DNA of 64,000 nt. Source: Bryum argenteum (lineage: Eukaryota > Streptophyta > Bryopsida > Bryales > Bryaceae). Shown piece after piece: positions 7,039-60,010 of this stretch. Below the pieces are notes generated by a model. It was not told where the DNA came from and did not search any database. It saw only the letters and a list, made by a program, of their open reading frames with translations. The stretch covers positions 26,440,364 to 26,504,363 of the forward strand of contig CM073322.1 in NCBI GenBank assembly GCA_037043015.1. Direction: 5' to 3'. The stretch's first letter is position 1; each line of letters opens with the position of its first letter. Position numbers and translations under genes: made by a program.

Positions 7039-7407
7039 TTAACCCTTAAACGTCTAAGGTGACCCGAGGGGTCCATTTCCAACAGAATCTTCTCTGTAGC
7101 TCTCAATGTACTCAACTTTTCACTTATATTTTGATGTCAAACTGGTCACCTTCTTCTGATGCATTCAAAAAGTGAAATTTTAGAATTCAAATCACAATTT
7201 GTATGAGTGATTTTGTGCCTTGAAAGGATTGTGGTAGGTAGGTTGGGGTTGTACAATACTTGTAGGAGGTTGCAAGCTCATCAATGATTGGATCATTCAT
7301 GATGCCCAAGTTCAAAAAGTGCACTATTCATGATGCCCGAGTCCAAAAGATGCTGTGATCCAATACTCGGCTGCCCAAATCCGTATAGCAAGACGTTTAA
7401 GGGTTAA
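7039..7407. mobile_element. piggyBac-like non-autonomous element (subfamily D), 369 bp with TTAA
   Basis: Flanked by TTAA at 7039-7042 and 7404-7407. The left end reads TTAACCCTTAAACGTCT and the right end is its exact reverse complement, giving 13 bp of inverted repeat inside the TTAA. It lies inside the larger 710-bp insertion of unit A. No transposase coding. Confidence 0.8.
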
Positions 7408-8043
7408 CCACCAAGCCAAGTGGTGCCTTCCTCAATACATACTTACAAGTCCAGCTTTACAAAATCATGACAAACTTTAGAATGGCTTTTACAAATGTCC
7501 TACATTTTAATGTGTTCAACATTCTATTACTCTCTTTCGATGCACACAAATTACTCCCATGACTAACTTCACAATAAAAAGTCTCCAATGCTAATTTTTA
7601 CCTTTTCACATTCGAGAATGCGTATGCATGAAATGTTTATTATAAACCATTATTGAAATAACTTAGGAGGGTACCTTTTTAAAATGGGGGACCCATAGAA
7701 TCTGCCAAGAATTGATGGGAATGGGATACTCGATTACAATGTTTTTGTTTATGATTTCAAAGAATTGCATGCTGTGTCACCATTGTGGCTTTTACATGAA
7801 GCTGCCCACTTGTCCGAGCCCAAGACTCCAAGCTCCTAATTGGGATGAACCCCCTCATGCAAGGAGATGTCATGGCATATATTAAAAGGAGAGTGATATC
7901 CAGGTGGTGAGAGACACAAGCTCAAGGGATGCATGTGGCATTTGGATGACTAAAGTGATTGTGTAACAAACTCTTGCAAATACCAAAAATCTTCCCTATT
8001 TATGGAGATTGATTGGTATTCATAGTTACTATGTTTGGTAAAT

Positions 8044-8290
8044 AGATAGAAACTCCCGTCCCGATGTGAATGAAGTGACCGTTTGTAATGCTAATAACCC
8101 GATGCCCATTAGACAAGGGGAAATTGAGACAATACTACTTCCCCCTCTCGAGGGTAGACACTATGACTACAATGATTTTTAGCTAGTTACTACTGCCTTG
8201 AAGATACTTGACATAGTATCCCCCAAAAGGACTTTGAGGTATCCATATAAGAAGGTTCAAAGACTACCCACCATAGTTGAGTGGACAAAA
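8044..8290 (+). repeat. DR1 copy, unit A
   Basis: Collinear counterpart of 19981-20235; resembles 38872-39005 and 45415-45560 (shared gtgaatgaagtg and acaatactacttcccc blocks). Non-coding. Confidence 0.65.
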
Positions 8291-8527
8291 TGAAATCAAA
8301 AACAAATTTTGATCATTACAATACACTTGCCATCCCATTAGATCATTACCCATGTGTCATGTGCTAATTCGATGGAAATTAGATTGAAATTGAATAAGAA
8401 GTATTTGGGAATTTTTATTTCTTAGACAATTGGAATTGGCACAAAAATTGAAGTGTTGCCTTGAAAATATAAAACATTGTTGATTATTTGACAACGTGTG
8501 GAATTGGCCTATCACGTATAGTATTTG

Positions 8528-9446
8528 TTCATCCCTAAAGATCCACAACAACCAAATCGGCTTTTTGTTGTTTGGGCAGCGTAGATGAAGTGGTTAGAAG
8601 TAAAATTTTTGCCTAAGACTTTTACTGTGTGCTCTTTACAGAATAAAGTGTATATGGTGAAATTTGCAGAGCCAATTTCTAGTTTCAAGTCCGGAAATTT
8701 TAGGTTTTCAAGTCCAAATCGAGTGCTTTAATTTTAGGTTTTTGTAGATTCTTATTCTTTTGGAATATGTTCACAACCAAATCACTACTCAAGTTCCAAA
8801 GTGACCCAAGTGGATAGTTTACCAATTTCAGAAAGGCACCGTCCAAAAACTTCAGAAATAATTTTCTCAATTTGTAATAATTTTACAAAAAAATTCTAAA
8901 AAAATTCTTCGAAATTCGGGATTAAGAAAATTTTCCCAATTTTTTTTCTCTCAAAATTCAAAAACTCATAAAGGCACCTACACACCATTCAATTTTGTCT
9001 TAGCCCAAATATGTCAAATTTGATGCATGTTTTCCTATATCGTTGTTTCTAGGCCTTCTTTTAGAAAATTTTCATGAAGGTCAAAAAAATGGAATGAATC
9101 TCTGAAACTTAGCATGAGTGTACCCAACTTGATTAACTACATGAAAAAAAATACAAAAAAAATGTTTGGGGTAACATGTTTTCCTTTGCACCATGGTGGC
9201 AATGTCTCACAAACAAGGCCCAAAAGAATCTTTGCATTAACTCTGAATGTTATGATCTCACAAATGTCGCAAATCCAACGGTTGAAATTTTACGTGGTAG
9301 TACTCACAGTGAATAACTTTGAGATCTTAGTTGAAAGTAAATAAAATAAAATAAAATAAATGACCAAACCTTAATTCCAACAAGGTGGTAGAATATTGCA
9401 TTTATGGTTTTGAAAGTCCAAAAACGCTTGGATTTTTAGGAGTTAA
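8528..9446. mobile_element. piggyBac-like non-autonomous element (subfamily L), unit A
   Basis: The right end is tttttaggagttaa with TTAA at 9443-9446; the left end is ttcatccctaaagatcca, a decayed TTAACCCCTAAAGATCCA. The unit-B counterpart (20521-21370) keeps better ends, so the insertion predates the duplication. Related single copies or ends lie at 25593, 43236, 54924 and 59620. Confidence 0.7.
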
Positions 9447-9993
9447 CATGAAATTTGATAAGTAAGCATCAATATGACACTTTTTAAGAGTATAAAATGC
9501 ACTTCTATATAAGCATGCTTTCCTTGCCACACAACGCTCCAGTGTCATTGAACAATTTATCGTAAATTTTATGGTCATATGATGAAAGATTATGATGAAT
9601 TTGTTTAACAAATACAGTTATAGATGTATTGAAATCTTTGTATACACACTCCTATGTGCAAAACTTCTTACTTTAAAGTGTATGTACTAAACTATAAGCA
9701 CATGTGCGATCTATGTTCTTCTAAACATATAACTTCTCAAAAACTTCGGCAACTCAAAATCAAACTAAAATTCTCTCAAATCAATTTATTGGTATGTGTA
9801 AACTAGCATGAAATGGGCTTACCCTTTAAAAAGTTAGAATAGTAATGAAACCAAATGTTGAAAAACTCAACCCATGAACCATCTCTATTACGGCGTCCGA
9901 CGATGTCCTTCATTAGTTGATACATTTCAAAAATAGAGGCAAAACACATGGAAATGATTTGAAAGTTTCCAACTTTACATGCACACATCAACC

Positions 9994-10829
9994 TTAACTC
10001 CTAATGTTGAAAAGAGCCCCAAGCCGGACGTTTGAGGTTTGATCAGCCTCATATTTATTATACGTAGCTAGCATGAAGTTGGAACCTCTCGCAAGTTGTA
10101 GATTTTTTACATACCTTTTCGAATAGTCATTTCATGCTTCTAAATTCCTCATACTCTAGAAGATATTCACGGTCGAAGTTTGAAATCACTATTTAAAATC
10201 TGCCCAAACTGCGGTATATGCTCATCTATTCTCAAAATCTGCACACAATCAGTTAACTAGTAGAAACTGTAAAAATTCACCAAAAATTGAGATTGCACTT
10301 TTTATCAAGTTTTGTTTTTTGTACATATATGGTTTTAAGGCATTATCTCATCGTTCGGATCTTCAATCCGTTTATTTGTCACATGCCATTTTTACCATCA
10401 AAGGCCGGCATTTGTATATGAATTTCAACATACCTTCATGTGAAAATTCAAGCATTTCTTTAGGTTTTACAGGTCGCATGAAGGTAAATATCGCATTGTC
10501 ATGTTCCTAACTTACTTAGGAACAAAAATGTGAAGGGCCTCAATTCAAATTTACTCTTCAGATCGATTTTTTGGGTTCACAAAAAACATCAACCCATTTT
10601 GCAACAAGGGAAAAGAACTTTTTTTCAACTTTGAATGTTACGATCTCACAATCGGTGAGGAACTTGGAGCTAAGATTTGTTACACATGTACTTGGACTAG
10701 TTACGTACATGATCTTACAATTATATACTTGAGATAACGTCAAAAGTTGAAAAATTTTCATCTTGCAGTGAGAGAGGGTGGTTTTGAGACCTTTTTGCAG
10801 TGTGGGGGCCTTTCGACTTTAGGGGTTAA
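9994..10829. mobile_element. piggyBac-like non-autonomous element (subfamily S), 836 bp, absent from unit B
   Basis: TTAA at 9994-9997 and 10826-10829; ends TTAACTCCTAA on the left and ctttaggggttaa on the right. Unit B has an empty site with one TTAA-like tetramer (TAAA, 22164-22167) between matching flanks. A second full copy is at 46431-47215 and a decayed inverted one at about 39583-40390. No transposase coding. Confidence 0.85.
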
Positions 10830-11367
10830 CTCGTAGATCAGAGAGGCCCAAAGCCGGTTGATATGCTTAAAAAAAAATGCTTTTTTTTTACAAAAACTTA
10901 AACTTAGAGTGAATGCATCTCAAGATCCGTACGGTGAAATTTGATAATTTTCTTGGTGGGTAGACTAAATAGACAGTTTTAAACAAGATCCTAAAGTTTA
11001 GATTAATTAGACAATCTCAAAACCAAATTGTGAAAAGAATTGTTCAAAAGATTTCGTTCACAAATTTCAGATATGACCATCCGAAGCTGCACTGTAGAGC
11101 TTCTTCTGCAGCGGTTAACTTTGCAGGAAGTGGTAACTCTTGAGAGAATGCACTCACAATAACAACTGCATATGATGATGGTATTTCCCAATATAGAAAG
11201 AATGCACAATAGAGGAATCCAAAATCTTTAAATTTCCTCAGAAAGCCTGACATCCATTGCTACCTTTTCAATGTAGAACATGATGATTGTCACCACCACC
11301 GCCTGGTCATTGATTAGTATAATTATGATCGAAGCTTGATTGCATTGCAACTGCTCGATTTTGCTAC

Positions 11368-11385
11368 TTTAGGGTTTAGGGTTTA
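11368..11385. promoter_or_regulatory. Telo-box / short interstitial plant telomere motif (unit A)
   Basis: Reads tttagggtttagggttta, just over two copies of the plant telomere unit. Retained in unit B near 22921-22938. AAACCCTAA boxes are common near plant transcription starts; here no confident gene is attached. Confidence 0.45.
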
Positions 11386-11399
11386 AAGTGCGAGACATG

Positions 11400-12410
11400 A
11401 ATCCTCCGAAGAGCCGACAAAACTTGTTTACCAGCTTCAATTGCTCCTGCTTGATCAGCCTCCGCAGAAAGACATGTTACAGTCCCAGGCTCACCATGAT
11501 TTCCGAATCGTGGGCTGCGAGGGCACATTTCCAATCACTGAAAATTGCTTTGCTTGCAAGGAAACTTTGAATATGCATGAAGAAAATCCAGTGAAGAGAT
11601 GGCTTGTGCTGAAAAAAAGTTCAAAAACGGTGATATATCATAAAATAAGATTGAAACCATTCCGATGCGAATGGCTCAAAGCGAAACCTGAAATTTGAGA
11701 TTGTCGTCATCACAGTGCTCATAAAAATACCACAAATCAACTTGCTTCTGAGAATCAACGTGTATTCTAGTTCTACACCGACACCAAATGTCCTGAACTT
11801 AAGAATAGCTTAGCACTTCATGATTGGAATGAAATAAGGTATGTAGAAGGAAATTATTTTTAGAGAAATTCAACATTTAATTTGTGATTGGAAGGAGTTC
11901 ATGTTGTTCTTTGAAATGATCTCAGAACAGTATTGGACCAGTCTACTTCACCGCCTTCTTAAAATCTCTCACAAGCCATCACTCATGTGCATGGCTCCTC
12001 ATTCTTTAAGGCGGTTCCATGCTGATCATTTGAGATACCAGTGATCCAAGATCAAGAGACTGTAACAATTCCATACGAGATTCACCTGCATGTCGAGAGA
12101 TGTAGCAGTTCTGATTACTGTTTCTTGCTTTATTGTACCCAACCCACTTGATTGCACAAGTTGGAAAAATTCCAACAAAACGGACGAAGGAATCATCAGA
12201 AACGGATGAAAGTCGCCGCAATTTCAGGGACACTGTTCCTTCGTCTCCACCGACGTGCAGTCTGGTGCACAGGCTGAGCGCCATGGCCAAAGCCAGGGCT
12301 CTTGTACTCCGATCTTACATGCCCGGCTTGCTGATTCTGAGAGTAGCGTCGCCTCGCTGTTGCTGGAAGGGGAGCTTGCGCGTGATCAGCGGCCATTGAT
12401 CAAGTAAGTA
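11400..12410 (-). pseudogene. Unidentified coding-like remnant, unit A
   Basis: A GC-richer island, conserved in unit B (22960-23960), with short open frames on the minus strand. One starts at 12396 in a CAATGG context (MAADHAQAPLPATARRR...). Another, at 12006-12290, contains CAIKWVGYNKARNSNQN. Both have recognisable counterparts in unit B, but substitutions are not obviously biased to synonymous sites and frames shift between blocks. The plus strand also has an open frame over 12133-12399, so orientation is uncertain. I recognise no family. It may be the remains of the gene the duplication carried. Confidence 0.3.
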
Positions 12411-13340
12411 AGTGTGGGGGGTGGATTTGAGTTTCAAGCTTTTTCTTGCTGAGTTGACATTAAGTTTGTGTCTGTACCGACAGTCCTGTAAGTTAGAGTT
12501 CCTTTAGTCTGTTGCTCGCTGCTTCAAGATCGGAAGAGGGGTGAAGAGTGGTCGAGCGCTGCTTTCACCTTCTCTGGAGCTACTCAGAGTTGGCTTGTCT
12601 GAGATTGATCTCATCGTGATGTGCAGCGTTTAATTGGGATCAACTGCTGTAATTATCTGATCACTGTCTAAGTGTGGAGGAGGCGGCTGAGGGGAGCTTG
12701 CACCACTTCCTCATGTGGGAGGAAATCCAGCGCTAGTCCCAGAAGAAGAGAATCTCAGATACTGATCGGGCATCGCTCTTTACTGGGGTCACGGATAAGA
12801 GCTAGTGTGGAATGTTAAGTGGGGTGGCCACGATGTTTACCGATCTGTGGGCATAGGCTAGGGGCTGTGTCGGCAGCGGATGTTTGACAAAGCTTTCTGT
12901 ATCCTACTCTCAAATTCACATGAGGACTGTTGGTGGTAGATGCCGGAGTACAGAAAGGGTCCATGTACTCCAGATCTGTATGTGAAAACGTCCACACAAC
13001 CAACCAGTTTTGGCTGTACTAGAATGTGTATGAGCCTGAACATGTCATTTACCTTTATACATAAATAACGCTAAAACAATCGGAACATTCTTGGTTGATT
13101 ACACATGTGCTTTGCATGCACTCGGACAACTTATGCATTATGGCTGTTTTGGATCCCAATTCTGAATGTTGTGGGCATGTAAAGTTTCGTGACTTTATCA
13201 TCTCTGTGGGTGTGGTATGGTTCTGTGTAATCCGAATTGTTGAACATGAAAACCTGCACAGATCGCTTTGTATCTTAGCATGTAAGGTAGGGCCCTGATT
13301 ATGTGGAATACCTTGCGGAGTTCCACATGATTGCTGCTCA
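12411..13340. other. End of unit A, no gene recognised
   Basis: Moderately GC-rich sequence collinear with 23960-24965 in unit B. Short, frame-broken coding-like bits (around 12680-12740, and 24240-24300 in B) cannot be assembled into a recognisable product. The last 250 bp read like 3'-untranslated or intergenic DNA. Confidence 0.4.
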
Positions 13341-13790: not shown

Positions 13791-15279
13791 GCATAATTGC
13801 AGTTCAAAACTTTTTTTAAAAAACTAATTTATTCCTCCCTGTATATTAAAAAAACAAGTTCAAAAATCCATAAAAAATTCATTCTCTCTCCTAAAAAAAT
13901 TTTAAAAAATTGCTTAAACTTGGGAATATTTAACTCAATCTTCATCCTCCCAAAAAAAAATTTGAAAAAAATTCATTTATCCCAAGGTTACTGATTGCCC
14001 GTAGGAGAAAAACAGGGTATAAAAACCCCTCCCCCCTACCTTCTTTCAAAACAACAAATGAAGACCGTTGATCTTGGAGATCGACGGAGCGAAATGTGAA
14101 AGACCATAACGCCAGCGAAGGCGACATTATGGGAAATAACCAGAGTTCCCTTGGCCAATGAGGAGGTGCCACCTCTATAGTTTTTGCCAGAACTGCGGTT
14201 ATGGTGTAATTACCTTGACATTTTTGACACTTTTCATCGCATAGTGGGGGTAGGTGGCATTGCATGAAGTGGAGGAAGGAATTTGGAGTAACCTTTTAAC
14301 CCTTCACACTTTTGATGAACAAATGTTGATTTGTAGTATTTATAAGTTTTTTTTGCTAGAAGCACTTATTGGGATGAATATGAATTTAAGCAAGAAATTG
14401 AAATCAACCGGAAGATCTTGAAGTTGCCTATGTGAAATCTCATTTTTAAGCATTAAATAGTCTTATTTAAGTAGGCTATGATGAAGAAAGTTGTCCGATA
14501 GAGAAAAACTATTACTCTTTAGACTATCGGTATGTTTCACAATACTTAGAAGTTTGCAGAGATTTGATATTGTCATAGTTTTTTTCAAATTTGGCCTGCA
14601 ATTATCTATAGTTTGTATCAATATGTAATCATATATTTTGACAAATGTGAAGGGTAAGGTAGTAATGTACACCATGGTTGACTAATTTTGTGTTAACATT
14701 TGAGGCACTTGTACTTCACAAAATGAATATGTAGTAACATTTGAGGCACCATTTGAAAAATACACGAATGCGTCATTTTCATTACAATATATATGTTGCT
14801 TAGTTGTATATAAAAGGAATTATCATCAAATACGATTGTCAAAAAGTTGCATAACACAAAAGTGAAAAAGATTGTAACAATACTCAAATAGAAATGATGA
14901 AATTGAATGAAAGCAACAATTCCCAAATTTTGATTGTTCTTTACTATACAACAAGACTCACTACAAGAAATTCATGGTATATATGTGTCTTAGATATGTT
15001 GTTTCTGATTGAAATAAAGAGTTCTTGACTTCAAAAGTCGTAACAATAAGTCATAATTACCATGGCTTCCATAATGACTTTCTTTCGACCCATTGTTTTA
15101 ATTAAACGTTTTATCTTTACAATATCAAAATCAAGAATAAGGCAGGCATAATCATTGAAATCGGAAGTAAGGTACTCCTCGTCCCGATGGGTGTAGTGCT
15201 CTATATAATCCACAAGCGCATGTTCACATGGAATCTCTCCTTCCTTGTAATATCACACCTATGTAATAATGATAAAAGT

Positions 15280-16740
15280 TAAGATGGAATAACTTTTAAT
15301 TATAGAATATACATTTTAATTTCACGTGATATGATGATCTCGTGGCCCATCACTCGTCCTCATGTTCGAGGGGACCCCATCACTCGTCCTCAAGTTCAAG
15401 CCCCTGTCACCATCTTCCATCCCCATCTATCGGAAATCCCCTTGTTCCCTGTCTTCTGTCCCTTCTAGTGTTCCAGCCTCTGTCACCATCTCCCATCCCT
15501 AGTTCTCGGGAATCCCCTTATTCCATCACTCATCGTCATGTTCGAACCCGAGCCCTATCACCATCTCTCATCCCCATCTATCCAAAATCCACTTGTTCCC
15601 TGTCTTCAGTCCCTTCCTATGTTCCAGCCCCTCTCATCCCCATCGCCCATTTTCCATTTCCCTTTTGCCATCCCCATTTCCCCTGAAATCCCCTTATTCT
15701 CTATCTCTAAAATTGAAATCTGACTTTGCAGTCTGGTGTCCCATCACTCGTCCTCATGTCCCAAGATCTCTCGTGTCCCATCACTCAACCTCATGTCCCA
15801 ACCCCTCCGCTGTCACTATCTTCCATTCCCATTTCCCTGGAATCCCCTGATTCCCTGTCTCTAAATCTGAAATCTATCTTTGCACTTTGTTACACACATA
15901 AGTTGTAGTACAAACAACACACATGTAAAAATCTTTGCCACAATCATTGATTTTAAGCCAAAAACCTAGCCTGCCCGAAGTAGCAAGAGACCAATTTAAT
16001 TTACAAAGATAGTAAGAGGTTGAAGCCAAAAGTCCTTTTCACATTTTCATATAAACTACACCATGTCAATACTTGAAATTTGATATGCCTACCTTATACT
16101 TGGAACGTCCCTTATTACAAACTCCACCCATTGTTTTTATTCATAAATGGCCCGAAATTACATACTCCATTCCTATGAAAATGACCTTAGTCCAAAGCTC
16201 ATACAAAGAAAATAGAATATTCAGGGACAAAATTTAAAAACACATAGTTTATCAATGGTTGGAATATTGAATTTCCAACAATAGGAAGCCCAAACGCCCC
16301 TTTACAATGTCCAAAACATCCCTTTTTCTTCAAAAGTCTCGAACTCATATGTTCCCCTAGTATGAACACCATCTCTTATCTCCATTTCCCGAGAATCCCC
16401 GGATCCCCTGTCTTTGAAATTTGACTTTGCAGTTTTTTACAAACATACTTTGTAGTATATACAACACTTTGTAAAAACACTTTCTCACAACCCAAAATAT
16501 TTATATTGGATTGACTTTCAATCATGGAATATAAATTTCAATTTCAGGTGGGAGGAACTCTCGTGTCCTATCACTCGTCCTCGTGTCACAACCCCTCCCT
16601 TGTCCTATCACTCGTCGTCACGGCCCAGCCCCTCCCGTGTACCATCACTAGTCCTAACGTCCCAACCCCTATCACCATCTCCCATCTCCATTTCCCGAGA
16701 ATCCCTTGATTCCTTGTCTCTAAAATTAAATTTTGACTTT
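15280..16740 (+). repeat. Satellite of about 250 bp, unit B block
   Basis: Counterpart of 3757-4880: C-rich segments built on ccatcactcgtcctcatgt alternate with the same spacer. It is rearranged relative to unit A, and the flanking block seen at 4980-5400 in A is present twice in B (15960-16380 and 16820-17250). Overlapping frames are repeat translations. Confidence 0.75.
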
Positions 16741-17492
16741 ACAATTTGTTGCAGAGATACCTTGTAGTACACCCTAAACTCAGTACAAATCTTTGTCAAA
16801 AACAATGACTTTAACCCAAAAACCTATATTACGCTGCTCAAAATAGCAAGAAACCAATCTAATTTGCAAGTATAATTAGAGGTCAAACCCAAAAGTCTTT
16901 TTCACATTTTCATATGAATTACATCAAGTCAATAGCCAAAATTTGATATACCTACCTTATACTTGGAAGGTCCCACATTACAAACTCCACCCATTGTTTT
17001 CATTCATACATGTCCCCGTTGTAATATATGCTGCAATCTTGTGAGTCGAAAGCTCATACAAATGAAAATGAATTGACAGAGATAAGGAAATAGAATATTC
17101 AAGGAACAAAATCTTTAAAGAAAAAACATTGTTTTATCAATTGTTGGAATATTGGAGTCTCAACAACAGGAAGTCCAAACGCCCCCCTTCCTACAATGTC
17201 CATAACATCCCTTTTTCCTTCAAAAGTCTTGAACTCATACATTCCCCCAGTGTGAACAGGACTCTAAAGATTGATTCCAATCCTCATCATGTTCATGCAG
17301 GGTGTAGGCCGCTCTTCGTCTAGTCAGCGCCTACGGAGTAATGAGGGGGGGGGGCCTATATAGAAATCTACCCTAGGTGTAGATGCTAGGAGAGTAATAA
17401 TAATAATGATAGGGTCATAATACAACCTTATCCAGGGCTGGGGAATAGGTTCGGTGTGGGGATCTCTGTAAAGGTGGTGCTATTAAGGAGTA

Positions 17493-17881: not shown

Positions 17882-17883
17882 TA

Positions 17884-18840: not shown

Positions 18841-19073
18841 TTAACCCTTAAAAGTCCCTTGGGGATAGTATGTACGCTGTCGTATAATTAGGATTTGCTA
18901 CCAACAAGAAACTCTAAACTGGAATTGTAATAGCTCACTAGAACAACATTAATTCAAATGTCAACTTCTTCTTTGAACTCAAACGCATTAAAGGTGTGCA
19001 TTCACTCCAAATACAACCAAAATACACCGTATTCTACTGGTCGCTACGGCACGCTCAGACGTTTAGGGGTTAA
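18841..19073. mobile_element. piggyBac-like non-autonomous element (subfamily D), 233 bp
   Basis: TTAA at 18841-18844 and 19070-19073; left end TTAACCCTTAAAAGTC, right end gacgtttaggggttaa. Ends resemble 7039-7407, but the flanks differ, so it is a separate insertion in unit B. Confidence 0.75.

Positions 19074-19651: not shown

Positions 19652-19653
<2 letters not shown>

Positions 19654-19688
<35 letters not shown>
19654..19688. repeat. Poly-T run of 35
   Basis: Uninterrupted T run beside an A/T-rich patch. It replaces a short sequence present at the matching place in unit A (about 7745-7770). Confidence 0.95.
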
Positions 19689-19689
<1 letters not shown>

Positions 19690-20520: not shown

Positions 20521-21370
20521 TTGACCCCTAAAGATCCACAACAACCAAATCGGCTTTTTGTTGTTTGGGCAGCGTAGATGAGGTGGTTAAAAGTAATATT
20601 TTTGCCTAAGACTTTTGTTGGGTGCTCTTTACAAAATAAAGTGTATGTGGTGAAGTTTGCAGAGCAAGATTCTAGTTTCAAGTTTGGAAATTCTAGGTTT
20701 CAAGTCCAAGACGGGCAATTTAATTTAGATTTTCTTTTTTCTTTTTTCTTTTTTTGAAATATATTCATATTCAAATCACTACTCAAGTTCAAAAGTGTCC
20801 CAAGTCAGAAAGTTTACCAATTTCACAAGGGCAGCCTCCAAGAATTTAAAAAAAAAGCATCACAATTTTTAATAATTTTACAATTATCGCTTCCAAAATT
20901 TGTCAAAATTCAAAAGTTTGAATTTTTAAAACATTTTTAGTTTAATTTTTTTCTTTTTTCTCAAAATTCACAAACTCATAAAGCCACCTATTCACCATTC
21001 AATTTTTTCTTAAAATGTACATATCTAATGTGATGCATGTTTTTCTATATTGTTGTTTTTAGACCTTCTTTTAGATATTTAATTTCCATGAAGGTTAAAG
21101 GAATGAGTCTCTAAACCTTTGCACCATGGAGACAATGTCTCACAAGCAATGTCCGAAAGAACTTTTGTACCAACTTTCAATGTTACGGTCTTACAAAAGT
21201 TGCAAATCTAACGGTTGAAATTTTACATGGTGGTACTCACAGTAAATGACTTTGAGATGTTACAATTGAAAGTACAAAAAGAATTAAAAAATTTGACCAT
21301 ACCTTAAGGTGGTAGAAATTTGCAATCTTTGGTTTGGAAGTCTAAAAGTGCTTGGATTTTTAGGGGTTAA
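20521..21370. mobile_element. piggyBac-like non-autonomous element (subfamily L), unit B, 850 bp
   Basis: Left end TTGACCCCTAAAGATCCA (TTAA decayed to TTGA at 20521-20524), right end tttttaggggttaa with TTAA at 21367-21370. Counterpart of 8528-9446. Confidence 0.75.
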
Positions 21371-24965: not shown

Positions 24966-25592
24966 CCATAAAGCTCTTTGTGTGTTTTTGGGAGCTTCAA
25001 ACCTCAAAACTGCGATCCTTACTCTCGGGGGTTTAAATTGGTTTTTTATTTTGATTTTATTTTTTATTTTTTATTTATTTTTTATCTTTCTCCTTTTTCT
25101 CTTTTTTGAACTTCCAACCAGAAGAAGAACTTGTACCTAAGACTATTTTTTAACAGTTTTCCGAAGATTGAGTGTTGGATGTTTAGTGTTTGAGAGATCA
25201 TAACATGCGAAGTTTGTCTCCGAAGTTTTTTTGGGCATTGTGAAGATTGTTTTGAAAATTTTGGAGGCTCTCTTGTAAAGTTGGTAAACTTTTTGACTTG
25301 GGGTCACTTTGGAACTTAAGTAGTGATTTGGTTTTGAACATATTTTCAAAAAAATACTAAAAAAAAAGACTAAATTGAGAGCTGCTAGAATTGCCCTACT
25401 TGGGCTTGAAAACAAAAATTCGTGTCAAAAAACTTTAAAGTTGGAGTTTGACTTCGCAACTTTCTGCACACACACCTTGTAGTAAAGGAAACTCTTGCAC
25501 CAATTTATAGCCCATAATATCAAAGTTAGACCCTTCATCTAGGCTGCCCGAAACAACAAAAACCCATTTTGGCTCTCAAGGAACTTTAGGGG
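24966..25592 (-). repeat. Degenerate subfamily-L piggyBac-like copy
   Basis: From about 25390 to the TTAA at 25593-25596 the minus strand matches the left part of the L elements (TTAACCCCTAAAGTTCC, then a block like gggcagcctagatgaag). The other end is not clear; 25030-25040 contains a decayed candidate. Confidence 0.55.
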
Positions 25593-25949
25593 TTAAAGCA
25601 TAGATCATGTAGCTGAACTGGTTCACACCTCGTGATTAAGATGCTCCAAGTCCCTTTTCATACGCAGTGCGTTCGTTGCTCCGCAATCTATATTTTCCTG
25701 TCAAAGAGTGCGATCTTAGGGTTTCTTGGTGAAGATTGAGCAGCTTGCTTTGTCCAACATGTCATTTGGTCCAAGCCTTAGCAAGCTGGAATTTCACATT
25801 TGCTTTGGGTTGTTGTGAAAGCGACCGGCATTGTAGAATACACGAGAAGTGTGCTCGTCGTATGTTTTGACAAGATTTTAGTTTCATTGTATGTTCGCAA
25901 GCGGCTGTGATGTTGGGTTGCAAGTTCTGAAAGTTCAAGATTCCACAGA

Positions 25950-34306: not shown

Positions 34307-34309
34307 ATA

Positions 34310-38233: not shown

Positions 38234-38501
38234 TTAACCCCTAAAGGTCCATGATACAAAATTGTTTAAATTATCAAAAAGAACCTTCTTCTACTTCAGG
38301 TGCAAAGAAACTCAATCTAAGCATTGATTAGAAGATCCAACCATAGGATCTTGAAGTTAACTTGACCCTTTTCTCGAATGTCAAATTTGAACCGTTAATT
38401 TTTCTCCAATTTTGAGATTATAATGGTCAAAGTTGGCTGAATTTTCTCCCTGCGGAAATTCCAAAAAGCGTTTTCCGCTTTCTTGGACCTTTAGGGGTTA
38501 A
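38234..38501. mobile_element. piggyBac-like MITE (subfamily M), 268 bp
   Basis: TTAA at 38234-38237 and 38498-38501. Left end TTAACCCCTAAAGGTCCA; right end tggacctttaggggttaa is its exact reverse complement (14-bp inverted repeat plus TTAA). The interior is the reverse complement of 42539-42805 and 46086-46353. Confidence 0.9.
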
Positions 38502-39582: not shown

Positions 39583-40390
39583 CAACTCCTAATTTTGTAA
39601 GGCCTCAAAACTCCAAAAAAGCCTCAAAACTTGCAAAAACGCCTCAGAACAACCCTCGTTGGTTGCAAGGTGCAAAGATTTGACTTTTGACGAACTTTTG
39701 AGTCATGAAACCAAAGGATCTAGTACCAAACTTGCAAATGTATTTGTGTACCAAGTCTTAGATACAAAATCCTTGCCAATCGTGAGATCATGATATTCAA
39801 AGTTGAAAAAAAATAAAAAATTCCTTGGTTATAAAATGGGTTTGAAGTGTTTTGTAAGCCAAGAAAACCAATTTTAAGAGTGAATTTGAATTGAGGCTCT
39901 TAAAATCCTTCTTCCTAATTTCTGTCTATACCCTTATTGGACCTATGTCACTTACTGAAATGCTTGATTTTTTACATAGAGGTTTGTTGAAATTCAAATA
40001 CATACGTAGGTCTTTGACATTAAAAAAAGCATGTGAAAATTTCTTGGATTGTAAACCCGAATGGCAAGATTATGCTTTGGTATCTCTTCTACATATTTAA
40101 AAAACAAGACTTGTAAAAAAGTAAAGTCTCAACCTTTTTATGGGTTTTTGAAGCTATTGTGATCTAATTGATTTGATGTTGAGAATAATTGAGCATATAC
40201 AAGAGTTTGGGCGGTTTAGGACAAATTTCGAATAGTGTTTTCAAACTTTGGCCGTGAATATCTCCTAAAGTATGAGGAGTTCTAAAGCTTGAAATGACTT
40301 TTTGGAAAGGTATGGAAAAACTCTACAATTTGCAAAAAGTTTCAACTACATGAAATCTATATTTAGTAACTTAGAGCCTAACCAAATTTG
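39583..40390 (-). mobile_element. Decayed inverted copy of piggyBac-like subfamily S
   Basis: The minus strand follows 46431-47215 (for example the block on growth of gaatatctcc at 40260, and aaagcatgtgaaaatttctt at 40028). Its ends have lost clear TTAACCCC motifs (left candidate tcaactcctaa near 39583). Confidence 0.5.
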
Positions 40391-42289: not shown

Positions 42290-43230
42290 TTTTGTAAGAT
42301 CAAGGTTATTTTTATGAATTATTAAAACGTATGTAGATATTAAGATGAATTCCAACAACATTTTACTTGAAAGCCATTAAGAATAACTTCAGTAGTGGAT
42401 TTGCAATAAGGTTTTCATTATAGATAAACTAAAAACATACATAGTTTTTGAGTACTTGAACCTCCTTCATCCACCATTGGATTTCAATCACTAATTAAAT
42501 ATACTTCCAATTAGAGTCTAACTTTTGTAGTAGAAACCTTAACCTCTAACATTCCTTAAAACCCGAATCGGGTTTTGGAGGTTCCCGCATGAGGAAAACT
42601 CAGCCAACTTTGACCATTATAATCTCACAAATGAGGAAGAATGAACCGTTCAAATTTGGTATGTGAGAAGAATGTCAAGTTAAATTCGAGATCTTACGGT
42701 TGAATCTTTTAAATAATGCTTAGATTGAGATTTTATGAGCTTAATCTAAAGGAAGGTCAAATTTTGTGACTTAGACCATTTTGCAACAAGGAAATTAGGG
42801 GTTAACTCAATCCAAGGAGTTTTCAAATAAGGCATGAATCATATAGCAAAAGGTTTAGTCTTAGACTTTTGCTCCTCTTGAAATATTTTGGCACTTTTCA
42901 CCATTGCAAGGTTTTTACTACAGCCAAGAATGTTTTTTTTTCAATGATTAACTTTTTTACAATGTAGTATATTTTTCAGATGGACATCTTTCTAATTGGT
43001 GATTTTTCATTGCAATAGGATTATTAGTAACATTTCCACTTTGGAGTAAAAAAGGATGAAATCTTTCAATCTTTTTAAAGAATCTTGTAATTTATGAGAT
43101 CTCATGACCTACAATAAGTTTAATACTAGTTTGCACGGTTGAAATCTAAATAGCTCATGCTCTTCAACTTTTACGGCAGATTTGAAATACATTTTTTTTT
43201 GGAGCTAAATAGAAGCTAGGGCGTAATTAT
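42290..43230 (+). repeat. Diverged subfamily C copy, split by a younger element
   Basis: Both sides of the 42539-42805 insertion align with 40550-41000. The right end has no clear TTAA terminus. Confidence 0.5.
42539..42805. mobile_element. piggyBac-like MITE (subfamily M), 267 bp, with empty site
   Basis: TTAA at 42539-42542 and 42802-42805; left end TTAACCTCTAACATTCC, right end aaattaggggttaa. It splits a subfamily C copy. The related copy at 40395-41086 is uninterrupted at gaaact-TTGA-accaatc (TTGA 40617-40620), matching flanks gaaacc and ctcaatc here. Confidence 0.85.
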
Positions 43231-46085: not shown

Positions 46086-46353
46086 TTAACCCCTAACTCT
46101 CCTTAAAACCCGAAACGGGTTTTGGAGGTTCCAGCAGGAGAAAAACTCAGCCAACTTTGACCATTATAATCTCACAAATGAAGAAGAATGAACGGTTCAA
46201 ATTTGGTATGTGAGAAGAATGTCAAGTGAACTTTGAGATCTTACGGTTGAATCCTTCAAATAATGCTTAGATTGAGATTTTTTGAGCTTAATCTAAGGGA
46301 AGGTCAAATTTTGTGTGTTAGACCATTTTGCAACAAGGAGATTTAGGGGTTAA
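46086..46353. mobile_element. piggyBac-like MITE (subfamily M), 268 bp
   Basis: TTAA at 46086-46089 and 46350-46353; left end TTAACCCCTAACTCTCC, right end gatttaggggttaa. Close to 42539-42805 along its length. Only 77 bp separate it from the next TTAA element. Confidence 0.9.
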
Positions 46354-46430: not shown

Positions 46431-47215
46431 TTAACCCCTAATCTCGAAAAGAGCCCAAGAAGGGTCGTTTGGGGTCTAGTTAGCCCCTTATTTACTACAT
46501 TTAGCTCGTATGAAATTAAAACCTTTTTGTAGGTTGTTGAGTTATTACATACCTTTCCGACAAGCCATTTCTTGCCTCAAAATTCCTCATTTTTTAGGAG
46601 ATATTCACGTTCAAAGTTTGAAAACACTATATGAAATCTGCCCAAAATAAAGAAGATTGAAGGATCATAAAAAATTCACCAAAAATTGAAACTTCACTTT
46701 TTTTCAAGTTTGTTCTTTTTACTTCAAAATAAGGTTTTAAAGCATGACCTCACCATTTATAAAATTATTCTTCCCATGCCATTTTTATTATCAAAGAGGG
46801 GCCTTTGAAGTTAAATTTCAGCATACCTCCATGTGAAAATTCAAGCATTTCTTTAGGTTTTATAGGTTGCATGAGGGTAAAAGTTGCATAAACATGTTCT
46901 TAACTCACTTAGGAACAATAATTAGAAGATCCACAATTCAAATTTACTCTTAAAATTGGTTATTTTGGGCTCACAAACCCATCTTGCATCAAGTAAAAAA
47001 CAAAACTACTTTTACAACTTTGAATGTTACAATCTCACAATTGGTAAGGAAATTTGAAACTGAGTTTCGGTACAGACATACATGAACAAGTTAGATATAA
47101 AATCTTACTGTTAGAGATTACGTTCGAAGTTGAAAACTTTCATCTTGCATTAAAAAAAAGGGTGGTTTTGAAGAGTTTTGGCAGGTTTTGGGGGCTTTTG
47201 ACTGTAGGGGGTTAA
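46431..47215. mobile_element. piggyBac-like non-autonomous element (subfamily S), 785 bp
   Basis: TTAA at 46431-46434 and 47212-47215; left end TTAACCCCTAATCTCG, right end gactgtagggggttaa. Collinear with 9994-10829. Non-coding. Confidence 0.85.
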
Positions 47216-48013: not shown

Positions 48014-50409
48014 ATGGAGTTCTGCAGGATGTGGGCAGTGTTCGTTCTTTCGCTGCTTCTGCTGCTTCTGCACATGCAAGTGGTGGTGAGATGTCAAGAT
48101 GAGTCGCCCACACCCTCACCGGCCTCCGACGATGGAGCGGTGCCGGATGAGAATACAATGGCGGCCTCTGCGGCGGAGGTTCTGGCGCTCCTGAGGCTGA
48201 AGCAGACGTTAGTGGATCCTCGCAACGTGCTGGCGAGCTGGAATGATAGTGGGGTCGGGACGTGTGATGGCTCCTGGGTGGGTATCAAGTGCGCGCAGGG
48301 GCGCGTCATTCAAATCGCGCTTCCGGCGAAGCGCCTCGGCGGCACGCTCGCTCCCGAAATTGGGCAGCTCGTGGGACTTCGGAAGCTGAATCTGCATGAT
48401 AACAACATCTCCGGCCCTATCCCCGCGTCGCTCGCTACCATCGCCACGCTCCGGGGCGTGGCGCTCTTCAACAATAGGTTCACGGGGTCGTTACCGACTG
48501 GGTTCGGAAGCTTGCCCCTCCTGCAAGCGTTCGATGTGGGCAACAACGATCTTTCGGGACCTCTGCCCTCGGATCTGGCCGACCCTCCCAATCTTATCAT
48601 TTTGAACTTGAGTGGGAATAATTTGACGGGCACCATTCCTTCGCAGTATGGCGGATACCAAGGTCAGTACCTGGATTTAGGGTTCAACAGTTTGTCGGGG
48701 CCGCTTCCCGGAACGTGGACATCGAGGGAGCTCATGGAGTTGCATGTGAACAATAACAAGCTCACAGGGTCATTGCCTTCGGGGTTGGGGAATGTGACCA
48801 CATTGAAGGTGCTTATCGCCGCGAGCAATGATCTGTCCGGGAGCATTCCTGCGACGTATGCGAATCTGTCTTCGCTCGACACTCTTGACCTCTCGTTGAA
48901 CAACCTCACTGGTCAATTTCCTTCCGGGTTCGCGAGCTTGCCACTCACGAAGCTGAACGTCACATACAATAACCTGTCTGGCCCGGTCCCAGCCTTTCGG
49001 ACGGCGTTCAACATCAGCTCCTTCGTTCCAGGCAATCCGGGCTTGTGTGGGTTCCCCGGATTGCTGGCATGTCCGCTGCCAGCTCCTTCACCGGCGCCAG
49101 AGTCACCAGCGGCGGCAGGGGGATCAACGGGGAAGAAATTGAGCACGCTGAGCATCGTGTTCATCGCGCTCGGTGGCACATTGGGCGCCATCCTTCTCGT
49201 AGCGATCCTGATCACGCTTTGCCGATGCTGTAGAGGCAGAGGGGCTGCAGCTGCCGCGGGGGAGAAGCCGGAGAGGTCACCGGAGCGAGAAGGGGATGTC
49301 GGAGGCAAGCTGGTGCACTTCGAGGGGCCACTGCAGTTCACGGCCGATGATCTGTTGTGCGCCACTGCTGAAGTTCTGGGCAAGAGTACGTATGGCACCG
49401 TGTACAAAGCCACATTAGAGAACGGGAACCACATCGCCGTGAAACGGCTCCGTGAAGGCATCGTCAAGTCTCAGAAGGACTTCACGAAGGAGGTGGATGT
49501 GCTGGGGAAGATTCGGCACCCGAATCTGCTTGCGTTGCGAGCCTACTACTGGGGTCCCAAGGACGAGAAGCTGCTGGTGTATGACTACATGCCCGGTGGA
49601 AGCCTAGCTGCTTTTCTCCATGGTAAGTCACTGAACCAACATCAACCATGCTCACAATCATTCTGTTCCGATTCTGATGCCCCTTCTGGATGATTGCAGC
49701 ACGCGCTCCGGAGACATCTCTAGATTGGGCCACGAGGATGCGAATTGCCGAAGGAGCAGCTCGTGGACTCGTCCACCTGCACCAGAACGAGAGCATCGTG
49801 CACGGCAATTTGACAGCTTCCAACATCCTCTTAGACACTAGATCAGCGGCCATCACCGCCTCCATATCGGACTTCGGCTTGTCTCGTCTCATGACTCCCG
49901 CAGCGAACGCGAACGTGGTCGCCACAGCAGGGTCATTGGGCTACCGCGCTCCTGAGCTTACGAAGCTGAAGAAAGCGACTACCAAGTCCGACGTCTACAG
50001 TTTCGGGATCGTCTTGCTCGAGCTTCTCACTGGTAACTCCAGCTCCTCCCTCGGATCTCTCCCACATCAATTCCCTCCATAGCTTGATTCTAATTCGTCG
50101 TTCTCCCCGTATGCAGGGAAGGCACCTCAAGATGTGAGCACCACAGACGGGGCTCTCGATCTTCCTGATTACGTGGCGGGCATAGTGAAAGAAAATTGGA
50201 CGGCCGAGGTGTTCGATTTAGAGCTCATGAAAGGAGCATCGGCACCGACAGAGGAGGAGCTGATGACGGCACTGCAATTAGCAATGCGGTGTGTGTCTCC
50301 GCAACCATCCGAGCGGCCAGACATGGTCGCCATCATCCGAGCATTAGAGGAGCTGAACCACTCCGAGGAGCGGTTCCATTCTCCTCGGTCGGGCACTTCA
50401 GCCGGCTAA
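48014..50409 (+). CDS. LRR receptor-like pseudokinase, IMK/MRLK-like (LRR-III type), 744 aa
   Basis: Exons 48014-49622, 49700-50032 and 50117-50409 join in frame across GT-AG introns of 77 and 84 bp. Order: signal peptide (1-30, long Leu run), LRR N-terminal cap with LASW motif, about 8-9 LRRs (85-330), Pro/Ala-rich linker, one membrane span (about 379-403), basic juxtamembrane stretch, kinase fold (about 440-735). The glycine-rich loop reads GKSTYGTVY and the ATP-binding Lys is K477 (HIAVKRL). DFG is kept (D594), but the catalytic loop reads HGN (571-573), so the catalytic Asp is Asn. Such kinases are usually catalytically weak or inactive and signal by complex formation. Family members such as Arabidopsis IMK2/IMK3 share this organisation. 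The gene looks intact and GC-rich. Confidence 0.93.
49623..49699 (+). other. Intron 1 of the receptor kinase
   Basis: 77 bp, gtaagtca to gattgcag. It splits the Ala codon between FLH and RAPET. Confidence 0.9.
50033..50116 (+). other. Intron 2 of the receptor kinase
   Basis: 84 bp, gtaactcc to gtatgcag. It splits the Gly codon of ELLTGKAP. Confidence 0.9.
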
Positions 50410-52129: not shown

Positions 52130-53300
52130 GCTTTGAGTGCTACGGCTTGTCTCGTTCGTGACGACGGAGGCAGGGAATGCATCGTGATTTTCTTCAAAGC
52201 TTCCACACATTGGAAGCCATCAAGAAGGTGTATAGCAAGGAAGCGATTTCTATCTACAGCGCGCATCCGCTGGTTGCGTGCCGGAAAATTAACCAAGTAC
52301 ATTCAAGGAAAACCACAGATACCTTCTGCACTGCAGAGCTACACAGACACGATATCTAAAATTGCAATATGGAGGCATGCATGTACGCTTGTTGCGGAAG
52401 CGAGGAAGCGAAGATGAGAAACATCACATCGGAGCTCTAAGCAAAGAAGCGGAGCAATGGTCTCCCTTGACACGGTTCAAAGAGTTACTACTGTATTTCC
52501 CCCTCCCCACGATTAAGACAATACCCACTTTGGAGAAAGATATGCGAAGAATGGACGAAGCCAGCATACTGATACCAACCTCGCGGTTAAGGTGATCGAG
52601 ATTTATGAACGAAGCTTGTCCATTCTTTGATTTTTTTAATGTGGCGGAGTGCTTGTACAGTCAAGGAAACGGGTGCAAAGCTTGCTCAAATAGATGTTGC
52701 CGTTGTTGGAAAGGAGGCCAAGGCTGTAGAGCAAGGAGCCAAATTGTTGTTGACCTGGAGTGATAATGTGGCCTCTTTTCTATCACTCCATTACGCTCTA
52801 TCTACTGCTTGTTGCCTCGATTCTTTGGTGCTGATCATCGGTTTGCACATAACGCAATGGACTCAGAGAATGGTGGATTGTATATGTACGGCGAAATTCA
52901 GGCACAAAGACTGGCAGGGAGGAAGCCCGGGCGTAGCGACCCTACAATGTCCATGAGTTGCAGTAACAAAAGAGCTCGTTGGGATGTGCTCGGGCTTCAA
53001 GGTAATCATCTAGCTTGTGGACAAGTCTTGCCGCACGGGAGTACCTTAATATATGAGATATACTCACACAAGCTTTTATGTCGAATGCTCAAAGCAAGCA
53101 TCATGCCTGCTCGCATTACTTATTCTCACTACTTCCATGTGGCACGTGCTCTATTCTCACACTTTCTTGCTGAGCCACTGTATTTGTTGTCCGTTACACT
53201 GGCTACGAATATGGCCACTATCAAGAGGTGTAGCTCAAAACAAGGTATCACGACGGCAGGAATTTGGTACTAAGCCTTCACGTTTTTATTCTGTTTCATC
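52130..53300 (+). pseudogene. Unidentified coding-like remnant
   Basis: Moderate GC and successive short open frames on the plus strand (52177-52359, 52362-52595, 52627-52956, 52809-53273). Some fragments look protein-like (KEAEQWSPLTRFKELLLYFP; QIDVAVVGKEAKAVEQGAKL). I could not join them into one product or name a family. It may be exons of a decayed gene or chance frames in GC-richer DNA. Confidence 0.25.
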
Positions 53301-54923: not shown

Positions 54924-55715
54924 TTAACCCCTAAAGGCCCAAGCAAGCCAAAATGGCTTTTTGTGATTTTGGATAGCCTAGATGAAGAGATTAAAAGTTA
55001 TATTCTTGCCTAAGATTTGATAAAGTGTTCTTTATACTTCAAATCGTATGTGGTAAAATTTGCAAAGCCAAATTCCACTTTTAGAACTTTCATCTAGAAA
55101 TTTTAGGTTTCAATTTTAAGAAGGGCATTTTATATTTAGACTTTTTTCAAAAATAATTATGAAAATATGTTCACAACCAAATCATTATTCAAGTTCCATA
55201 GTGATTTAAGTCAAAAAGTTTGTCAATTTCACAAGGGCAACCTCCAAATATTACAAAATCAATCTTCACAATTTCTAGCAATTTTAGAATCATCTCTTAC
55301 AAAATTTGTCAAATTTTGAGATTCTCGAATTTTTTCATATTTCTTTTTCTCAAAACTCACAAACTCATAAAGGCTCCTACTCGCCTTTTGGATCTCCAAT
55401 TACCATATATATCTAATAAAATGCATCATTTACTATATCGTTGATTTTAGAACTTTCCCTAGAAAATAAATGCATGAAGGGTCAAAAAGAGGAGTGAGTA
55501 TTTAAGATTTTGTATGAAGGCAGCCTATTTAAATTCCTACATGATAAAGAATATGAGAAAAATGTTTGGAGTAAAAATCATCGTCTCCCTTAGCACCATT
55601 TAGACTAGGTCTATTAGGTAGAGCCCAATTTTATTTTTTGTCAACTTTGAATGTTATGATCCTAATGTTTGGTCAAGATCCAAGAGTTGAAATCATATCC
55701 TTATAGATTCCAACG
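54924..55715 (+). mobile_element. Subfamily L copy with intact left end
   Basis: TTAA at 54924-54927, then CCCCTAAAGGCCCAAG. Downstream blocks match 8528-9446 (gaagagattaaaagt; gtatgtggtaaaatttgc). The right end, near ttttagcccaaa at about 55715, is decayed. Confidence 0.6.
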
Positions 55716-57810: not shown

Positions 57811-57890
57811 GCTCAAAACTCGATCTAATCCTAGTAGTAACAATTTACAAGTACATATTTAAAATTTGGAATGCATTGTTTGTTAGAATT

Positions 57891-58112
57891 GTTGGAACAA
57901 TGATAATATATTAATTATATAGTTCAAGGTAACTTGCCATCCAACCATAGAAGGAAATATTGAATAGAATAGTTCAATCAACTGTATCTCCTTTACCCTC
58001 CAAGTTACGTTATATAACATTAAGACATACGTCTTATGGTGTTCCCACTACACACTTGTATGGTGCTTCAGCTACCATAAACTAAAGAGTCTTCGGAAAC
58101 CCAATTCCAACA
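57891..58112 (-). repeat. 3' LTR of the copia remnant
   Basis: On the minus strand it runs TGTTGGAATTGGG to CCAACAATTCTAACA (222 bp, TG...CA). It is preceded by a purine-rich tract (aagtgggaa, about 58113-58121) as expected for plus-strand priming. No 5' partner is present. Confidence 0.7.
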
Positions 58113-59565
58113 TTCCCACTTAGCTAGCACCATCACAAAATGTGTATGACATTCCATTACTCCCATTTGACCCAATCGGGCTTTCTTGGGGTTAGGAACT
58201 TTGTCAATCTCTGATAACTTTCTGGTAACCGATGTTACTAAATGCACTCCCATACTTTTCTTGCAAAAGTCAAATCTGGCCTTTGGGAGGCTCTTTGTGA
58301 ACGTATCTACAATTAACCTCCAACGACATAGGTTTTGCATAACTTATACTTCATTATTGTAATTTCTTCTATATGTACTTGGCTTGGCTCAATGTGAAGA
58401 CCTTCTTGTCTCTAGCCCCTTCAGTCATCTCATTGGTCTCATTAGTAGATAGAATAACATCAAATGGTGAGATTTCTAGAATATCCTCCTCTTGATTTAT
58501 GGTCACATGTTCCATAAAATCCACATCCCTAATCATGAGCATTTGTCTTTCAATTGGATCAAATAGCTAGTTCTCCTTTGATCGATCACTATATCTAATA
58601 AAGATGCATATTTTTTTGGTTTTTACATTTAAATTCTCTCTTTCCATCCATAATTTTAGCAAATCGTTTACAAACAAAAATCCAAATATCGCTATACAAG
58701 GGCTTAGATCCATACCACATCTCATATGGTTTAGATTTTACCGCTTTTGTTGAAATGATGCTCAATAAATAACATGCTCAATAAATAACATGCCGTAGAT
58801 ATAGCCTCTGCCAAGAATCATCATGCTTCTAGCAGCTTTCATCAAAGTTTGATTTTTCCTCTTTGCTACTCCATTTTTTTGAGGTGTATATGGAATAGTA
58901 AACTCCCCTAAATTCCAAAACCTTCCCGAAATCTTTTGAAATCACTAGAGATGTATTCTTCTTCGTTGTCAGTCTGACAAAGTAGGGCTCTCTCACCTTT
59001 TTGTTCGAGTTGTTTTAACCTTGTTTTCCCACGACTTCTTCTTACTCTCCTTTGTAGATGATTCGTACTTACCACCTTTCTTTTCTCCCTCCTTTTTCTT
59101 TTCTTCATTTCAGAAGAATCACCTTCAGCATTCTCTTCAGCATTCTCTTCTTTGAGCTTATGGCCGACTTTCTTACATGAGAAACATTTGCCCTTAAATG
59201 CTTTTGTTTTCTTAAATTTCTCTTTTCTGACCGCCAAAGCTTTAATCGAGTCTTAAGAACTTTCACCATTTTCATCTTTGATTCTTTGCTCTTCTTGTAG
59301 GATCCTTCCAACTAGCATATGCATTGATAAATTTTGTTCGTTTCCATTGATGCTTGTAAAACTTTTCCAAGAATTTGTTAAGCTGCTCAGAAGAGAATTA
59401 GTCTTGTCTCCTTCATCAAGAACACCTACTCCTGCCAAACGATCAATTAAGGACCTAAATGCAGAAATGGATTCTGCCATCTCATCTTCCTCATTTGTTT
59501 TAAAGGACCAAAACTCCCTTTGTAAAATCCTTTTCGTATTTGATCTCCTAAAGCATGTATTAATG
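58113..59565 (-). pseudogene. Ty1/copia polyprotein remnant, internally deleted
   Basis: On the minus strand: gag (59253-59480, frame containing FRSLIDRLAGVGV and NSWKSF); zinc knuckle region (CFSCKKVGH, with the last Cys lost); an integrase fragment (EEEYISSDFKRF region, then a block related to KNG..K/R..RT) around 58908-58960; the integrase C-terminal region at about 58560-58740; and the end of RNase H (VDTFTKSLPKARFDF) at 58068-58340. Reverse transcriptase and most of RNase H are missing. Stops and shifts occur throughout. The 5' end stops short of the TTAA terminus at 59620. Confidence 0.85.
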
Positions 59566-59619
59566 AAATTTAATTCATTCCATGCTTATGAAATTTAATT
59601 CATCCCTTGCTCATGAAAT

Positions 59620-60010
59620 TTAACCCCTAAAGGCCCAAGCGTTTTTGCAACCTCCAATCTCAAAATCTGCGATTTTTGACCACATTGTGGAGTTTGGAGT
59701 ATGGCATAAATTTTTATTGTATTCTGGAACATTCAACCGTAAGATCTTGAACCTAACTTCATCCATGATTACCATGTCAAATCTCAACCGTTGGATCTGC
59801 ACCATTTGTGAGATCATAACGTTCAAAGTTGATGCAGAAATTTTTTTGTGGCTTGCCCGAAAGACATAGTCTACTTGGTGCAAAGGGAGACTTGGTGATT
59901 GTTACCCTAAACATTTTGCTAGTATTTTTTTCCATGTTAGAAATCAAGTTGGCCACACCCATGCAAAATTTTAGACACTCATTCCACTTTTTGGACCTTC
60001 ATACAATTTT
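59620..60010 (+). mobile_element. piggyBac-type left terminus and subterminal region
   Basis: TTAA at 59620-59623 followed by CCCCTAAAGGCCCAAGCG. The next 390 bp match the terminal part of the L elements (reverse of about 9060-9446). It faces the transposase relic, whose stop lies 1.53 kb away. It may be the end of that element or a truncated L copy. Confidence 0.65.

Follow-up and report, generated by a model that had tools for sequence, protein, structure and literature searches.

What are the short TTAA-flanked repeats that crowd this stretch of plant DNA, and is anything still moving them? The stretch, referred to below as the window, spans 64 kb (C2:26440364-26504363) of a genome that comprises 25 contigs and 258.8 Mb, and the original prediction, made from its letters, was that it carries a major expansion of piggyBac-like elements. 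Our analysis indicates, with a probability of roughly 95%, that these elements are piggyBac-superfamily DNA transposons in an apparent moss genome; the expansion in that genome is real, very large and partly very recent. In what follows, C-numbers denote contigs and L-numbers (L001 etc.) denote genome loci that were fetched for reading.

PiggyBac transposases reside within TTAA-bounded elements

The right edge of the window is occupied by a full-length piggyBac element on the minus strand (59620..64000 in the window, complete to ~65319; 5700 bp), which has TTAA at both ends and is 99.77% identical to the element of L039 over 5707 aligned bp; the part lying in the window (from 59619 onward) shows 99.73% identity to L039. 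Its terminus at 59620 had been taken for a lone end, and its partner lies outside the window at ~65319; the termini at 54924..54934 (plus strand; TTAACCCCTAA) and 25586..25596 (minus strand), both relatives of the ~0.9-kb family described below, do stand as single ends. The 5.7-kb element also contains internal tandem repeats (60762-61080), downstream of the transposase.

On the minus strand of this copy, the DDE domain (PF13843) is encoded in two pieces: an N-terminal part at 62263..62808 (Pfam E=1.8e-19, profile 3-96), with a frame break before the next piece, and the rest of the domain at 61316..62305 (E=7.6e-52, profile 101-347). An open frame at 61149..61388, on the same strand, holds a C-terminal Cys-rich domain (core 61212-61280) in another frame than the DDE domain, and the gene’s 5’ end falls beyond the right window edge. 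In L039 and L040, two 7-kb stretches around equally scoring piggyBac transposase matches, a single open frame of 824 aa spans the region that is broken in the window copy. The protein it encodes matches PF13843 with E=1e-75, its DDE domain beginning at residue 389, and no Pfam family besides PF13843 was matched at E up to 1. The elements of L039 and L040 are bounded at both ends by TTAACCCCTAAAGGCCCA and carry identical 14-bp ends, CCCCTAAAGGCCCA, at both termini, forming short inverted repeats of the CCY type.

Among solved structures (PDB), the transposase matched only piggyBat 9c0f and 6x67 (entitled ‘Transposase’), the best-scoring relative being 9c0f (residues 389-777, E=3.2e-28). Three catalytic aspartates, at LTIDE, TMDN and GVDVADQ, could be aligned to 6x67, which together with 6x68 we take to be the piggyBac enzyme of Trichoplusia ni, using what we presume to be the catalytic aspartate positions of that enzyme. 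We compared 31 transposases, which single linkage at 50% identity sorts into 6 groups, and the triad was invariant in all 12 of the lineages chosen from them for alignment. Across the genome, all 116 places scored with PF13843 (out of 775 first-look candidates) were above the cut-off, as compared with none in 14 control genomes, and 93 of the 116 lacked an internal stop, as counted from the match table. The transposase-bearing elements thus encode a piggyBac DDE transposase, to which many lineages appear to add a C-terminal Cys-rich domain: in 13 of the 32 loci scanned, including the related families L019, L020 and L038, the DDE frame runs on without a break into the motif of this tail, whereas L012, L022, L025, L033, L039 and L040 show a frame shift or an interruption.

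The termini that enclose these genes belong to two classes. The class TTAACCCCTAAAGG bounds elements that encode PF13843, and the class TTAACCCTTAAACG occurs outside the PF13843 match in L009, L010, L013 and L018. On C1, ends of the TTAACCCTTAAACG class at 23339974 and 23345172 flank a PF13843 match at 23341202-23342323; from the pairing of coordinates, rather than from a reading throughout, we take these to be the ends of one ~5.2-kb element with TTAACCCTTAAA ends. Around the first 30 transposase loci, matching up TTAA ends by 14-bp inverted-repeat similarity yielded no pairs, probably owing to the short length of those loci. The predicted piggyBac identity is thus borne out by TTAA duplication (see below), CCC-type termini, and PF13843 transposases that keep the aspartate triad inside elements so bounded. 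A different arrangement was seen in L001, L002 and L008, also on C1, where the same outward-facing termini, ~1.2 kb apart and with the same flanks, occur in three places; this pair is perhaps a composite, or a larger repeat with nested elements.

Natural empty sites reveal a TTAA duplication

The target of the 5.7-kb element is a 25-bp tandem repeat (59563..59619, plus strand). Its units at 59563 and 59588 are intact, each with a single TTAA, and read ATGAAATTTAATTCAT, whereas the third unit, from 59613, is split and shows TTAA on each side of the element. A further comparison is provided by a ~12-kb tandem duplication (window ~3000-13300 and 14540-24960, ~73-94% identical by piece), which holds an old shared and a newer private insertion. 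The 836-bp element at 9994..10829 is missing at the matching place of this duplication (~22164), where TAAA stands as compared with TTAA twice at the filled site; the empty site is therefore one tetranucleotide with one mismatch to TTAA. Filled and empty sites thus agree with the predicted TTAA duplication, exactly at the tandem repeat and with a single mismatch at 9994-10829.

In several places an element has inserted at the edge TTAA of another element and shares it with that element (C2:1912919-1912922; L032:489-492; window 9994 with 22164). At C2:1912919-1912922, two copies of the recent burst described below lie tail to tail and, by their coordinates, share one TTAA.

Termini number in the thousands and one family has expanded very recently

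In the window, 26 sites match TTAACCCCTAA with no more than one mismatch, as compared with 1.66 on average, and never more than 5, in 100 shuffles. Genome-wide, there are 14,192 exact occurrences of TTAACCCCTAAA versus 172 of the reversed pattern, and 8,992 of TTAACCCTTAAA versus 229, so that the major expansion surmised from the window is confirmed by counts against a reversed-pattern control. Among the first 100 listed places of TTAACCCCTAAA, 19 neighbouring pairs lay closer than 2 kb, and 14 of these 19 were inverted (+-), the remaining 5 being in the opposite order; the inverted pairing under 2 kb that had been proposed as a check is therefore observed among the places listed, and the pairs fall into discrete sizes (264-268, 586, 930-936, 978-982 and 1311-1315 bp). 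Inverted pairs of TTAACCCTTAAA 233-243 bp apart similarly recur on C1 among the places listed.

The 5.7-kb family accounts for the most recent part of the expansion. The elements of L039 and L040 are 99.84% identical over 5,710 aligned bp and have different flanks. Genome-wide, we found 63 exact left ends of this family, 62 of them directly preceded by TTAA, and 62 exact right ends, every one of which is paired with a left end 5690-5708 bp away. When the left end was used in a DNA search, the best 40 of 2,449 candidates were scored, all of them perfect over 300 bp, and 30 of the 40 were fetched, a sample that is biased toward young copies and includes the L040 insertion and the window copy. 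The base before TTAA varies among these 30 copies (9 T, 8 C, 7 G, 6 A; the query included TTAA). Over their first 1.8 kb, they differ by only 43 substitutions in 54,122 aligned bp (0.08%), and the burst is therefore recent. The same alignment contains 160 gap openings as compared with the 43 substitutions, an excess that suggests indel errors in the assembly.

The copies of the burst are unevenly distributed. C1, at 44.1 Mb the longest contig seen, carries 1 of the 63 left ends, where 10.7 are expected from its length (binomial P ~1e-4), and 5 of the 116 scored transposases; the density of termini in its first 8.4 Mb is ~12 per Mb, as compared with 55 per Mb genome-wide. This piggyBac-depleted contig is possibly a sex chromosome, or else a heterochromatic one. 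In one moss, the largest chromosome is reported as a putative sex chromosome (PMC10619864).

Short elements share their ends with the transposase-bearing ones

Nine complete elements had been delineated in the window, and in all nine the ends are as claimed, with decay of the left ends at 8528 and 20521. Most of them are read as miniature inverted-repeat transposable elements (MITEs) or as longer non-autonomous elements. We searched the genome with three of the nine (46086-46353, 7039-7407 and 9994-10829), scoring in each case the best 40 candidates (of 2715, 2950 and 3252, respectively); the counts below include the query. The 369-bp MITE at 7039..7407, with TTAACCCTTAAACG ends, gave 45 matches, of which 38 span positions 1-369, its full-length non-self copies being 96-98% identical with the exception of one at 91%. 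For the 268-bp MITE at 46086..46353, 37/41 matches span positions 1-268, and the full-length non-self copies are 96-99% identical. The 836-bp non-autonomous element at 9994..10829, which is absent from the duplicate, is spanned in full (1-836) by 25 of its 40 matches, most others starting from position 33. Homologous full-length copies, on whose existence the prediction had been staked, are thus numerous for each element searched, and all three show the hallmarks of MITEs, namely copies homogeneous in length and ends like those of a transposase-bearing family. The TTAACCCTTAAACG end is common to 7039-7407 and to L009, L010 and L018, and TTAACCCCTAAA is common to L039 and to one end each of 46086-46353 and 9994-10829.

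The remaining short elements are relatives or further members of these families. The 785-bp element at 46431..47215 belongs to the family of 9994-10829 (71.8% identity over 851 aligned columns, end to end), and a sequence with unclear ends at 39617..40386, which had not been listed earlier, is a further relative of that family (69% over 796 aligned columns). A 267-bp MITE at 42539..42805 is 92.5% identical to 46086-46353, and a diverged 268-bp MITE at 38234..38501, inverted with respect to these two copies, is 75.6% identical to it. A 233-bp MITE (18841..19073) ends in TTAACCCTTAAA and TTAACCCCTAAA. A subterminal palindrome is clear at 42539, 46086, 54924, 38501 and the right end of L039, and is absent at some others.

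At 8528..9446 lies an old non-autonomous element of ~0.9 kb whose left TTAA has decayed, the left end reading TTCATCCC, and its duplicate within the ~12-kb duplication, at 20521..21370, has a decayed left end reading TTGACCCC. These two look like one old insertion that was copied by the diverged duplication, and would not be independent. Over its last 394 bp, 8528-9446 matches the first 406 bp of the 5.7-kb element at 73% identity; in all, the three 267/268-bp and the two ~0.9-kb elements show 72.7-75.9% identity over 103-412 bp to the subterminal part of that element. Because of this identity, both families, the 268-bp and the ~0.9-kb one, have the look of old derivatives that arose by internal deletion from related elements. 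The notion that the subfamilies have unrelated interiors therefore needs correction, as the 267/268-bp and ~0.9-kb elements share sequence with the 5.7-kb element.

Is the system still moving?

By the mechanism that we propose, the transposase would bind the shared ends and cut the element out, and the excised element would insert at a TTAA, duplicating the tetranucleotide; the short elements would be non-autonomous MITEs, moved in trans by transposases from elements with similar ends. From the sequence we infer that the transposase may be expressed and act on these ends, and that transposition may be continuing today. In its fullest form, this reading describes a native moss piggyBac system that is moving now. 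It would comprise several transposase lineages and, counting both types, ~23,000 exact termini, with insertions depleted on the longest chromosome; its autonomous 5.7-kb family would have grown from a single copy to ~62 within ~0.04-0.4 million years, if the 0.08% divergence built up at 1e-8 to 1e-9 per site per year, the rates assumed here. We consider the chances of this fuller picture to be about even.

Several observations weigh against the piggyBac explanation as a whole or limit it. The putative link between the MITEs and the transposases is read from shared ends only. A fourth aspartate (D353) varies in the 12-lineage alignment, and GVD..DQ was missed in L010 and L011 by a simple motif search. 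In both L039 and L040, the DDE and Cys-rich domains lie in different frames, and the Cys-rich piece of L039 matches Pfam weakly, below the cut-off (zf-HIT, E=0.00077; zf-Tnp_2, E=0.014); the tail is continuous in only one (L067) of the 7 readable 5.7-kb copies among the 30 fetched left-end loci, and the window copy has an additional break within its DDE domain. Of the 63 left ends, one is not preceded by an exact TTAA and one has no right end to pair with. Finally, the excess of gaps over substitutions leaves open that most 5.7-kb copies are dead.

Some of these points bear on the alternative that survives best, in which the elements are indeed piggyBac but those of the 5.7-kb family no longer move, either as a burst from a single master that has just ended or as copies moved by the intact transposase of another lineage. 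The displaced Cys-rich domain in L039 and L040, its discontinuity in 6 of the 7 readable fetched copies, and the broken DDE domain of the window copy all speak for such a history. On the other side, the 824-aa frame of L039 and L040 is intact and covers the DDE domain in full, one fetched copy has an unbroken tail, and the indel excess suggests base-calling errors, which leads us to regard inactivity as possible, with odds somewhat short of even.

A system of piggyBac transposons, active or not, must also be weighed against other superfamilies with a similar target. TTAA- or TA-containing targets are known outside piggyBac: Sola3 inserts at TTAA, and the Stowaway elements of Tc1/mariner at TA. 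Tourist elements of PIF/Harbinger target TAA/TTA (PMC10004981). We consider an origin of this kind very unlikely, and for the transposase-bearing elements it is already contradicted, given that the TTAACCCCTAAAGG class bounds PF13843-encoding elements, that the TTAACCCTTAAACG class lies outside PF13843 matches and flanks one of them on C1, and that TTAA is what the natural empty sites show, one of them with a single mismatch. Two candidates were ruled out individually: PIF/Harbinger (Tourist), which makes a 3-bp TAA/TTA duplication, since the duplication here is TTAA, and Sola3, since PF13843 is the sole family matched, at the threshold given above, by the transposase of the 5.7-kb element. 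That the termini are a short motif occurring by chance, or interstitial telomere-like repeats, as CCCTAAA, the plant telomere unit, could suggest, is refuted by their 82-fold excess over the reversed pattern, their inverted pairing at discrete lengths and their full-length homologous copies, and its probability is negligible.

Host, known systems and significance

The original prediction had contrasted the elements with the genomes of flowering plants, of which they are not a usual component. The host does not appear to be a flowering plant and is very likely a moss. Its plastid contig, C12 (114,600 bp), encodes a PsaA that scores 1732.6 bits against 8htu and 1712.3 against 6l35, 7ksq, 7kux and 7xqp, ahead of 9lut at 1698.1 and of the other entries listed at 1652.9 or less, and PsaB has the same entries in the lead. 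The leading entries are presumably those of the moss Physcomitrium patens, and several lower ones those of flowering plants. It is in animals and fungi that piggyBac elements are most familiar, and the TTAA MITEs of animals are short and non-coding. The piggyBac of T. ni has CCC-type short inverted ends, as the moss element does, and a C-terminal Cys-rich domain.

Nor is piggyBac new to plants, as a review lists it among seven MITE superfamilies of angiosperms (PMC10004981). Elsewhere, it appears in a table among the superfamilies reported across all groups, with land plants among them (PMC4438587), is listed among plant superfamilies (PMC10794571) and for a brown alga (PMC12477816), and in a fern amounts to 1,230 elements, or 0.00% of the assembly (PMC6890710). 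The superfamily is thus already known, and what is new is the host, the scale and the recency. None of the papers listed by our searches, some of which showed a portion of their matches (20 of 355, 15 of 40 and 15 of 60), deals with native piggyBac elements of a moss, and an earlier description may exist.

The moss element resembles T. ni piggyBac in its TTAA target (PMC5505980) and in the three aligned aspartates of the DDE domain, but differs from it in a longer N-terminal region (DDE from residue 389 of 824), in its 14-bp ends CCCCTAAAGGCCCA, in its size of 5.7 kb and in its plant host. PiggyBat (9c0f), the best-scoring solved relative, differs in host and sequence, and about half of the moss protein aligns to it. 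The short elements are like the PiggyBac MITEs of angiosperms in being short, non-coding and flanked by TTAA (PMC10004981); in contrast to these and to animal TTAA MITEs, they occur with transposase-bearing elements of similar ends in the same genome, in a probable moss and among thousands of termini. PpTc1 and PpTc2 of Physcomitrium patens are also moss DNA transposons, but of the Mariner type, and are described as nearer to the elements of fungi than to those of other plants (PMC7466625).

Thousands of termini together with a near-identical full-length family offer a natural setting for studying how plants silence piggyBac and where it inserts, and the same genome is a setting in which to ask whether piggyBac was inherited or horizontally transferred. 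In viral contigs scanned with the 12-lineage transposase alignment, using two short patterns and non-exhaustively, 13 pattern matches included no relative, which therefore gives no support for a viral vector. In plants, piggyBac appears as an animal-derived tool (PMC5505980, PMC10794571), and that of T. ni was described as yet to be tried in P. patens (PMC5505980). Were the moss system moving now, it would represent a plant piggyBac that is active in nature, and an active plant copy could serve footprint-free gene delivery, for which the T. ni transposon is used now (PMC5505980, PMC10794571).

Other features of the window

Rfam and tRNA scans of the window gave no matches. Tandem arrays with units of 37 bp and ~250 bp occur at 3700-5000 and 15700-16800. 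A possible fragment of a resistance gene of the nucleotide-binding leucine-rich-repeat (NLR) type lies at 33698-37261, its WHD_ROQ1 score of 23.6 bits falling just under the cut-off of 24, and is followed by an array of ~210-bp repeats that is not translated. Ordinary plant genes are found at 47999-50082, encoding a leucine-rich-repeat receptor kinase, and at 52767-53273, encoding an adenosine deaminase domain.

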